From Lophium mytilinum (Eukaryota; Ascomycota; Dothideomycetes; Mytilinidiales; Mytilinidiaceae): DNA of 64,000 nucleotides. The stretch is from positions 806,001 through 870,000 of the forward strand of contig MU004197.1 of the NCBI GenBank assembly GCA_010093605.1. Direction: 5' to 3'. Positions 9,735-35,105 of this stretch are shown piece after piece. Below the pieces are notes generated by a model. It worked only from the letters and a program-made list of their open reading frames with translations. It ran no database searches and was not told where the DNA came from. The first letter of the stretch is position 1. The number at the start of each line of letters is the position of its first letter. Made by a program: the position numbers and the translations under genes.

Positions 9735-9741
9735 AAAAAAA
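9735..9741 (-). terminator. Pol III terminator of tRNA-Ser
   Basis: On the minus strand a run of seven T residues lies 12 bases after the 3' end of the tRNA-Ser gene, followed by a second T run at 9728-9732. Such runs end RNA polymerase III transcription, so the tRNA gene has a complete transcription unit. Confidence 0.8.
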
Positions 9742-9752
9742 TTAATCATGTA

Positions 9753-9884
9753 CGACACCTCTGGGGATCGAACCCAGGCTCCCTGAGGATTGTTAGTGAC
9801 CTGATTGGACATCAAGATTTGGGGAAGCCGTACCGAAGGAACGGGCTTAGCAGGCCCGCGCGTTAACCACTCCGCCAAAGTGCC
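9753..9884 (-). tRNA. tRNA-Ser(GCT) with a 51-nt intron-like insert in the variable arm
   Basis: Read from 9884 down to 9753. The acceptor stem pairs GGCACTT with AGGTGTC over seven positions (including G-U pairs), with discriminator G. The D arm is GCG/CGC, the anticodon stem CGGGC/GCCCG encloses loop CTGCTAA (anticodon GCT, serine), and the T arm is CTGGG/CCCAG with loop TTCGATC. Internal promoter boxes A (TGGCGGAGTGG) and B (GGTTCGATCCC) are intact. The gene is 132 nt instead of about 82. The excess is a 51-nt block (minus strand, 9832-9782) that begins GTACGG, contains CACTAACA and ends TCCTCAG. Removing it leaves an 81-nt tRNA whose variable arm is TTCC-TTCG-GGAG, a four-pair stem with a UUCG loop. 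There is no intron at the canonical position after base 37. The identity of the tRNA is secure; how the insert is removed, if it is, is unknown. Confidence 0.88.
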
Positions 9885-10473
9885 TGTTTGATGGACGGTA
9901 GCGGAAAATGTTGCAATATATAGTTTATTCAGAAGAGCTAATAGGCGAGATTTGACATCGGCTGCGGGCAAAGGCTTGGCAAGCATGCATGACCTCGGGA
10001 TTACAACTCCACCATCACAACTTGTTACCTGGAAACTGCACATTTCACGCGAGCAAAGGGCCCCGGATAGATGCCGGCTTATTCTGAGTCACGCAAAACC
10101 CTTGTTCAATATTACTGTTATCGAAAATCGGTCCTCCTACATTCCCACTGTTACTAATTATAGGACTAGGGGTGCGTTCAACGAATATTCGACACTTCAC
10201 GTAACATTCGCATAGAAAAGCCTTTGGTTTACTCTCGACAGTCTTTCGCTAAGCCCTCTGGTGCCAAATGCCGGTTTAATTGACGATATGGTAGTGTTGT
10301 TTGCTTCCTTTCGATGGTAAATTTCACGAGCGCAAGGGTATTCATCAGACCAAACACTTCCATTAACATTAGGGTATCAGAATTACTTTCACGTATATAC
10401 ACATCGCAGCTTGAAAACAGACAGCCAACCCCATCTTTCAGATTCCCATCACATCGCCGCCCATTCAAAGTTC
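9885..10473. other. Intergenic stretch without a gene
   Basis: Lies between the 5' end of tRNA-Ser and the 3' end of the secreted-protein gene. Several short frames exist but none shows domain content or splice structure. I see nothing specific here. Confidence 0.35.
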
Positions 10474-28586: not shown

Positions 28587-28672
28587 TCTCCGCTCGCGGA
28601 ATCGAACCGCGGACCTTCAGGTATGATGTTCAATTACAGCCCGACGTGATAAACCAACTACACCAAGCGGAG
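28587..28672 (-). tRNA. tRNA-Tyr(GTA) with canonical 11-nt intron
   Basis: Read from 28672 to 28587. The acceptor stem is CTCCGCT with AGCGGAG, seven perfect pairs, and the discriminator is A. The T arm is CGCGG-TTCGATT-CCGCG. The anticodon stem TCGGG/CCTGA encloses CTGTAA, then an 11-nt insert TTGAACATCAT and the last loop base A, so the intron sits directly after base 37 as in other nuclear tRNA-Tyr genes. The mature length is 75 nt. It is a useful contrast with the tRNA-Ser gene at 9753, whose insert is elsewhere. Confidence 0.93.
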
Positions 28673-34084: not shown

Positions 34085-35105
34085 TCATAGTTTTGTGCTT
34101 TTCTTCGACGCATGCTCCCTATCCCATTCATCCTGTGCGCGTCAATATCAGTTGTCCGAGCAGATAGATGCTAACGGAACGTATCAACTTACATCCCAAG
34201 GGATTCGTGCATTGCGATGCTCGGGCTTAACCGGCGCATTGACCTTGTGATGTTCTACAGTGGCATATATCACTTTACCATCGAGGGAGGTCATTTTCCC
34301 TTGAATCATGGCCATTTGTCTCCCTACCTGAACCACTTTGCTTTCGATTCTGACCGTCGTTCCAATCTGCTAGGGTTGGCACGAGTTGCAAACACGCATA
34401 TGGATGTGGGGAGCTCACGGGAACCGCTTTCAGATAACTCAAGTTTAAAGTACGTGTGACGCCGCCCATAAACCTGTTCGAATCAGTGTGAATTGCAGAC
34501 AGGTTTAGGGACGGTAGAGAGATTCACTCCCAATATCCTGGCCGTGCAAGCGGGCATAGGGCAGACGTCGTGGCCATATCTAACGGGCTGTTCAGTCATC
34601 TGGCTCCTTTCTTGAAGTGATCAAGGCACAAACCGAAGATGACTCCAGCCGCTCCCCCATGCATGACATCTAAAACCCAAATTCAGCCTTTCAGCCCTGT
34701 GACGTAGCCACAAGCCTACCATTAAGGTTGGAATAGGGCTCCCCGATCTCTAGCTCGAAGGCGGCAAAACCGGACCCATCAGCATCCACAAGCTTCATGG
34801 TGCTCATTACTTCGTGATCGAAATCCTGCATTAGTTGCTCCGATTAGGGGGGTTCGATAAAAAAGCAGCCAATTGCGTGATTACGAACAACATGATGGGC
34901 TGGCCGAATGTCTGCAATGACACGGTAGCTGGTTGCATTTAGCCTGGCGCGCTGTAAAGGGGAGTGCCGGAGGAGGTGCCATCCGAGAAGCCACATGATG
35001 CTGGTGTAATATACCAACCAACTTATAAAAAGGAACATACCGATCGAAGAGAGCCTGGACCGCAGCCATTGCCTTTCTGCGGCCTTCTCGGGCATCAGCC
35101 GCCAT
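34085..35105 (-). CDS. Hotdog-fold acyl-CoA thioesterase (Them2/PaaI-like)
   Basis: Seven exons on the minus strand: 35105-35019, 34825-34720, 34669-34634, 34579-34528, 34473-34419, 34366-34193 and 34132-34085; 185 residues. All later junctions agree in phase and restore family motifs. NDVMHGGAAGVIF contains the HGGA active-site signature of the ACOT13/Them2 group, LARPGYWEFMGGVTRTLN crosses exons 4 and 5, and VEHHKVNAP closes the fold. The first junction (GTTGGT donor, 193-bp intron) is my choice among alternatives and is the weak point. Exons of 36, 48, 52 and 55 nt are unusually small. The likely role is hydrolysis of acyl-CoA thioesters in cytosol or mitochondria; no clear targeting signal is visible. 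It is divergent from the MFS gene. Confidence 0.88.

Follow-up and report, generated by a model that had tools for sequence, protein, structure and literature searches.

The stretch of Lophium mytilinum DNA analyzed here (contig MU004197.1 of assembly GCA_010093605.1, positions 806,001 to 870,000 of the forward strand; 64,000 nucleotides (nt), hereafter the window) harbors a nuclear transfer RNA (tRNA) gene for serine whose variable arm is interrupted by a 51-nt insert with the sequence signals of a messenger RNA (mRNA) intron. The gene lies on the minus strand at 9884-9753, is 132 nt long and matches the Rfam family RF00005 over its full length (49.7 bits, E 1.2e-7). An earlier reading of the window by a model, made from the letters and their open reading frames (the original prediction), had described a 132-nt tRNA-Ser(GCT) gene with all tRNA elements intact and a 51-nt excess in the variable arm. 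Both the sequence and the Rfam match confirm this description: the acceptor stem, D arm, anticodon arm (CGGGC-CTGCTAA-GCCCG) and T arm are all intact. With its cloverleaf, GCT anticodon, extended variable arm, T-run and both internal boxes, the locus is, by its sequence, a tRNA-Ser(GCT) gene of RNA polymerase III (Pol III); the box A-like and box B elements were assigned by their consensus. The features of the locus, together with an ordinary tRNA gene of the window for comparison, are as follows.

9834..9884, minus strand: 5' exon of tRNA-Ser(GCT), 51 nt, with the acceptor 5' strand, D arm, anticodon arm and 5' half of the variable arm (sequence, Rfam)
9849..9851, minus strand: anticodon GCT in an uninterrupted 7-nt loop, CTGCTAA, without an intron at the canonical site between positions 37 and 38 (37/38) (sequence)
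9783..9833, minus strand: spliceosomal-type intron, 51 nt, GTACGG...CTCAG, in the loop of the variable arm (sequence, scans, paralogues)
9828..9833, minus strand: 5' splice site GTACGG (sequence)
9792..9796, minus strand: branch-site consensus CTAAC, with the presumed branch A at 9793, 10 nt before the intron end (sequence)
9783..9785, minus strand: 3' splice site CAG (sequence)
9753..9782, minus strand: 3' exon, 30 nt, with the 3' half of the variable arm, T arm, acceptor 3' strand and discriminator G (sequence, Rfam)
9867..9877, minus strand: Pol III box A-like TGGCGGAGTGG, uninterrupted (sequence)
9764..9774, minus strand: Pol III box B GGTTCGATCCC, uninterrupted (sequence)
9735..9741, minus strand: run of seven T, a likely Pol III terminator, 11 bases past the gene end (sequence)
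9915..9922, minus strand: TATA-like TATATATT, 31-38 nt upstream of the tRNA (sequence)
28587..28672, minus strand: tRNA-Tyr(GTA), locus L074, with a canonical 11-nt 37/38 intron (Rfam, cloverleaf scoring)

The insert, GTACGGCTTCCCCAAATCTTGATGTCCAATCAGGTCACTAACAATCCTCAG, starts with GTACGG and ends with CACTAACAATCCTCAG, and its excision leaves the variable arm TTCCTTCGGGAGC, which is present uninterrupted in the paralogous tRNA-Ser(AGA) gene. Its length had been predicted correctly and its bounds had been set at 9832-9782; that excision gives an equivalent product, one base shifted, with a start other than GT, and the true GT..AG insert is 9833-9783. The predicted length of 81 nt for the spliced form was borne out, this form being read as Ser(GCT) by ARAGORN, which names the unspliced form Val(AAC), and the branch-site consensus expected about ten bases before the insert end is indeed there, as CTAAC with its A 10 nt from the end. 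Among the 18 distinct inserts described below, C at position 4 and G at position 6 are found in the 5' splice site of this gene only. A canonical 37/38 intron was considered as an identity for the insert and ruled out by the intact anticodon loop CTGCTAA. The tRNA-Tyr gene at 28587, which had been cited as an example of that ordinary type, does carry such an intron; ARAGORN names this tRNA Thr, and it is read here as Tyr(GTA). The further claim that the insert resembles the mRNA introns of neighboring genes in length and splice words found limited support, as the window mRNA introns were predicted for eight open reading frame pairs by a score that rewards splice words and two of the eight pairs had no candidate; one example from this score is 49 nt long and has GTAAGT and CTGAC 13 nt before TAG. 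TATA-like stretches resembling TATATATT were seen by eye upstream of some other tRNA genes of the genome.

That the window gene might be a lone oddity was ruled out by a survey of its own genome (43.2 Mb, 24 contigs, here C1, C3 and so on), which by our judgment of its gene content is that of a filamentous fungus. The best 63 of 1346 candidates of an Rfam tRNA scan were scored and gave 42 matches, and further interrupted genes were found through T-arm pattern searches, covering the first 100 of 398 and 100 of 108 places, and through inspection of the DNA by eye; the census is thus incomplete and its counts are lower bounds. At least 16 tRNA genes, 15 of them beyond that of the window, carry inserts away from 37/38, amounting to 19 inserts and 18 distinct ones (those of the Asp genes on C1 and C8 are identical in sequence). 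Their positions, counted by hand on the spliced forms, range from 9/10 to 52/53 across the cloverleaf:

Ser-GCT (window): variable arm
Ser-AGA (L040, C5:1138891-1139021): 52/53
Ala-TGC: 9/10
Ala-CGC: 26/27
Val-AAC: 32/33
Ile-AAT on C3: 18/19
Ile-AAT on C10: 28/29
Leu-AAG: 30/31
Leu-CAA: 15/16
Initiator Met (iMet) on C1: 52/53
iMet on C4, three inserts: 18/19, 26/27 and 52/53
Asp on C1, C8 and C13: just before 48 in each
Probable Ile-TAT on C5: 14/15
Thr-TGT on C14, two inserts: 15/16 and 24/25

These genes make up 16 of the 61 well-formed nuclear tRNA genes seen, and 13 of them are absent from the 42 matches to the best 63 of 1346 candidates in the Rfam scan. Genes for Pro-AGG/TGG, Ser-TGA and Arg-TCT were not found in this incomplete census. 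The spliced forms of 14 interrupted genes also contain a 37/38 intron (its placement in the probable Ile-TAT gene is uncertain), the exceptions being Ser-GCT and Ser-AGA. Recurrence of the same anatomy in 15 other tRNA genes is the strongest argument against a chance origin of the splice signals in the window insert. It also bears on the idea that mature tRNA-Ser simply keeps the 51 nt and so has a larger variable arm. Extra length is tolerated in variable arms, and tRNA-Ser is recognized through a long one; however, the same class of insert splits the D, anticodon and T stems of other tRNAs, where retention is hardly possible, and the mRNA-type splice signals would be left unexplained. We therefore regard retention as barely conceivable.

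The anatomy shared by the inserts is narrow. Lengths fall between 48 and 57 nt (mean 52.3) in the 18 distinct inserts, and positions 1, 3 and 5 are G, A and G in all 18. Position 2 is T in 15, C in two and A in one, so that 17 start with GT or GC; position 4 is A in 13, T in three, and C and G in one each, and position 6 is T in nine, C in eight and G in one. All 18 end in AG, and 17 are thus of the GT-AG or GC-AG type. GT/GC and AG guided the choice of bounds; A3, G5 and the branch site played no part in it. In 15 of the 18 there is a strict CTRAY whose A lies 9-14 nt before the end of the insert, as against a mean of 0.66 and a maximum of 5 in 2000 trials with shuffled interiors; a lenient form of the branch site occurs in all 18 (shuffled mean 1.6, maximum 7). 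Taken by their sequence, the inserts are of the U2 intron type, with a GTRNGY-like 5' GT/GC, a CTRAY-like branch site and a 3' AG. The 50-nt insert in the T stem of Ser-AGA has CAACTAACAG and TATAG, and its 5' end is GAAAGC rather than GTAAGC; either this tRNA, which is apparently essential, has a GA..AG intron or the sequencing is in error.

Removal of the inserts restores cloverleaves. ARAGORN finds a tRNA in all 16 spliced forms, with the assigned anticodon in 13, and from the unspliced forms it returns none in four, another anticodon in six and the assigned anticodon in six. Excision gains 4.5 to 27.5 cloverleaf points in the 14 interrupted genes whose unspliced form could be scored; two multi-insert genes could not be so scored and are left out of this range. 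As a control, 45 of 50 other tRNA sequences are complete cloverleaves whose only insert, present in 41 of the 45, is a 37/38 intron, and in the four control genes longer than 110 nt any further excision gains at most 2 points. Left out of the 45 as unclear were L041, L043, L057 (Met by eye), L119 and L135. Four of these, L135 (C19:176506), L043 (C6:2205556), L119 and L041, are tRNA-like loci with anticodon loops that are senseless as read; L135 may be a Thr-CGT gene with a further non-canonical insert.

How far the junctions are fixed was assessed by two approaches. In a splice-blind scan, single excisions of 35-75 nt or 40-65 nt were ranked by a simple cloverleaf score, after the other inserts of multi-insert genes had been removed by their assigned bounds. 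The assigned GT/GC..AG excision was among the co-optimal ones for 14 of the 19 inserts, and it was included in seven of the ten scans that left four or fewer co-optimal excisions (Ala-TGC, Ala-CGC, Ile C10, iMet C1, iMet C4 introns 2 and 3, and Thr intron 2). In comparisons with paralogues, again made with no use of splice motifs, a GT/GC..AG placement was co-optimal in 9 of 15. Introns 1 and 2 of iMet C4 against iMet C1 matched 25/25 and 22/22 bases, the two Ile-AAT genes on C3 and C10 matched 22/23 and 21/22 when each was set against the other, and Leu-CAA against Leu-TAG matched 24/26. The window gene against its Ser-AGA paralogue has five co-optimal placements, one of which is GT..51..CAG with 19/24 bases matched; when it is set, over a shorter stretch, against the second Ser(GCT) copy, none of three placements gives GT..51..CAG.

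Several of these results, and some features of the census, speak against reading the inserts as spliceosomal introns. The tightly constrained scans of Asp C1, Asp C8 and Thr intron 1 miss the assigned excision, and 5 of the 19 splice-blind optima (Ser-AGA, the three Asp inserts and Thr intron 1) are not GT/GC-AG; the assigned excision scores 68.0 against an optimum of 69.5 in the three Asp genes and 71.0 against 73.5 for Thr intron 1, and the AG-ending co-optimal excision of Ser-AGA is GA..AG. For at least four inserts (window Ser, Val, Leu-CAA and iMet C4 intron 1) a second GT..AG excision ties. In the window gene itself 161 excisions are co-optimal, and structure alone cannot fix its junction because the variable arm constrains so little. 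Paralogue comparisons missed in 6 of 15 cases: window Ser with L029, Ser-AGA with L029 (where GA..TAG is co-optimal), Ser-AGA with the window gene, Val with L004, Leu-CAA with L038 and iMet C1 with L104. One of these misses came from the flank setting, as the Val pair failed under a longer right-flank requirement and, once this was relaxed, matched 21/21 bases with the single placement GTAGGT..57..CAG. The smallest cloverleaf gains, 4.5 for Asp C13 and 5 for Val, are no larger than the 5 of the unclear locus L135. Lastly, the set may favor good-looking inserts, because several were first spotted by eye through GTAAGT and CTAAC.

Weighing these points, we consider it highly probable from the sequence that the inserts are spliceosomal introns lying in at least 16 Pol III-transcribed nuclear tRNA genes and removed by the spliceosome. 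The spliceosomal-type intron of the original prediction is thereby supported, as 19 inserts in 16 tRNA genes share constraints on splice sites, branch site and length. The same prediction had allowed for a non-canonical cut by the tRNA splicing endonuclease instead, which would make the inserts ectopic tRNA introns like those of Cyanidioschyzon merolae, nucleomorphs and archaea. Such introns do exist (PMC3978253, in the passages that treat them), and the endonuclease is evidently busy in this fungus, as 41 of the 45 uninterrupted tRNA genes have a 37/38 intron. This alternative nevertheless gains nothing from the junctions: a full 4+3+3 bulge-helix-bulge is present at none of the 19, in a weak test that was negative for five canonical control introns too. 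In the best case over the permitted shifts one of the 19 inserts reaches four central pairs, with no outer pair and one inner pair, and the window insert reaches 0-2 of 4 central pairs by the same weak test. The shared GTANG, CTRAY and AG signals would moreover have no reason under an endonuclease model, and we judge it very unlikely.

For spliceosomal removal, we infer the following course. Pol III would transcribe the whole gene, insert included, from its internal boxes; U1 would recognize GTANG at the 5' end of the insert; the branch site CTRAY would be used about 10-13 nt before the AG; and the spliceosome would remove the 48-57-nt insert as a lariat, which would restore the cloverleaf. 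Intron definition on an uncapped transcript is presumed, on the model of the fission yeast U6 precursor. The 37/38 intron that 14 of the 16 genes contain would then be cut by the tRNA splicing endonuclease and the ends sealed by tRNA ligase. The endonuclease needs a formed mature domain, and the spliceosome should therefore act first on inserts in the anticodon stem or loop (Ile C10 at 28/29, Leu at 30/31, Val at 32/33). Some inserts leave the internal promoter readable: the T-arm inserts of iMet and Ser-AGA end in G, and the GG at the start of box B is thereby recreated. Others interrupt the promoter, as does the Leu-CAA insert (15/16), which splits box A after TGGCCGAG and may thereby affect promoter strength.

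Whether the inserts must be spliced depends on which genes have uninterrupted relatives. All Asp genes found (3/3) and all Ile-AAT genes found (2/2) are interrupted, and two pattern searches for uninterrupted Asp and Ile-AAT junctions, allowing up to 3 mismatches, gave 0 and 0 matches; removal of these inserts must therefore be vital, unless divergent copies were missed. For Ala-TGC, Ala-CGC, Ser-AGA and Ile-TAT a single gene each was found, and it too is interrupted. Insert-free relatives were found for Val-AAC, Leu-AAG, Leu-CAA, Thr-TGT, iMet and, at C6:2139825, for Ser-GCT. The original prediction would have taken an intact insert-free Ser(GCT) set, together with a lack of spliced reads from the locus, as the mark of a pseudogene; the former is represented by this second gene, which counts against the proposed reading in that the window gene alone need not be essential. 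These insert-free genes also mean that some interrupted genes could be redundant, and the window gene, or the whole interrupted set, could be dead tRNA genes that have gathered insertions. Against this stand the Asp and Ile-AAT genes, interrupted in every copy found and with no match to either pattern for uninterrupted junctions, the restored cloverleaves, and inserts that retain their splice signals while diverging, and we hold such decay to be very unlikely. It is likely, on the sequence, that the fungus cannot translate without direct action of the spliceosome on tRNA precursors, namely those of tRNA-Asp, tRNA-Ile(AAT) and one three-intron iMet gene, and that two unrelated splicing machines act successively on single tRNA molecules.

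Some of the insertions seem to be older than the duplication of their genes, because their introns share sequence: those of Asp C1 and C13, 56 nt each, have 45 aligned bases in common, and the T-arm introns of iMet C1 and C4 (50 and 52 nt), located at the same position, have 32 of 52 bases in common with the splice signals kept. The introns of Ile-AAT C3 (L049) and Ala-CGC (L051), in different tRNAs and at different positions, are identical in their first 15 bases, GTAAGCTCATCACAA, which hints at possible movement of introns from one tRNA gene to another. Apart from the Asp copies and the pair of iMet T-arm introns, this 15-nt start is the clearest likeness, and no introner family was seen in the approximately 360 kb compared, overlaps counted twice. 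The iMet C1 intron (L098) and iMet C4 intron 2 (L101) contain stretches resembling tRNA T arms, AGTTCGAATCCCACT and GGTCTTGGGTTCAATC, which may be a reserve box B or a remnant of how they arose; 14 nt of the iMet C1 intron match the T arms of Leu tRNAs. About 145 bp past the iMet C1 T arm, L099 (C1:2061278) is a 28-nt fragment that agrees at 27/28 bases with the spliced T arm and acceptor end, without the intron. An exact 16-nt match to the interior of the Asp C1 intron, which may be due to chance, lies in the window at 35059-35074.

Two further groups of loci were observed. L045, L075, L105 and L106 are small loci of one family, each with the stem-like GTTCGACCGTCTTTCGCCCTCACC...GGTGAGGGTGGTTAAG and a box B downstream, and possibly encode a Pol III RNA; at gathering score, no Rfam family is matched by L045, L105 or L106. 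At C8:321667-322261 and elsewhere there are many copies ending in AGTTCGATCCTTGGCGCCGGAC, four of them close together on C8, which look like a tRNA-derived repeat family resembling short interspersed nuclear elements.

Among the nearest known systems is the U6 small nuclear RNA gene of Schizosaccharomyces pombe, a Pol III gene with an mRNA-type intron that is spliced during U6 maturation (passages of PMC10484740). The kind of intron and the polymerase would be the same here; the hosts are instead many tRNA genes and many sites. Three U6 genes were seen in the genome (L113 at C4:266440, L114 at C4:327480 and L115 at C4:426990; Rfam 86.5, 86.5 and 82.9 bits), and they lack an intron, as the Rfam U6 match is end to end within about 100 nt. 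Downstream of each lies a box-B-like GGTTCGAGCCCC. A downstream box B is the arrangement of yeast SNR6. Spliceosomal introns also occur in the nuclear ribosomal DNA of lichen fungi and other ascomycetes and are removed from the mature RNA (Bhattacharya et al. 2000, as cited in a passage of PMC8527467); there too mRNA-type introns interrupt a structural RNA not made by Pol II, with the difference that the transcript is Pol I ribosomal RNA and here would be Pol III tRNA. The canonical 37/38 introns, removed by the Sen endonuclease and Trl1 ligase, are likewise introns of tRNA genes and coexist with the inserts in 14 of the 16, but they occupy one fixed position, have no GT..AG or branch site and are cut by a protein endonuclease. 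Ectopic introns of C. merolae, the Guillardia theta nucleomorph and archaea also lie off 37/38, sometimes several per gene (PMC3978253, PMC8450103); in the relevant passages of these sources they have a bulge-helix-bulge, or no defined motif in the nucleomorph, and are not described as spliceosomal.

Among the titles and abstract openings returned by searches of an open-access library, none reports spliceosomal introns in nuclear tRNA genes, and the exact phrase gave no match; subscription papers and outside preprints were beyond this scope. The stem 'spliceosom' is absent from the main text of a review of tRNA introns (PMC4090602), and the tRNAscan-SE 2.0 paper, in the passages concerned, treats noncanonical introns as archaeal (PMC8450103). 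Spliceosomal introns are thus known, also in U6 and ribosomal RNA, and tRNA genes as their hosts are apparently new as far as these searches go.

The introns of tRNAs and of mRNAs are taught as separate worlds with separate machines. If the inserts are spliced as their sequence says, this border would not hold in at least one fungus, the spliceosome would routinely act on uncapped Pol III transcripts, and the supply of tRNA would be tied to splicing capacity. Annotation of tRNA genes can miss such interrupted copies. Insertions into genes so short, structured and constrained would also show clearly at which sites new spliceosomal introns arise and by what route.
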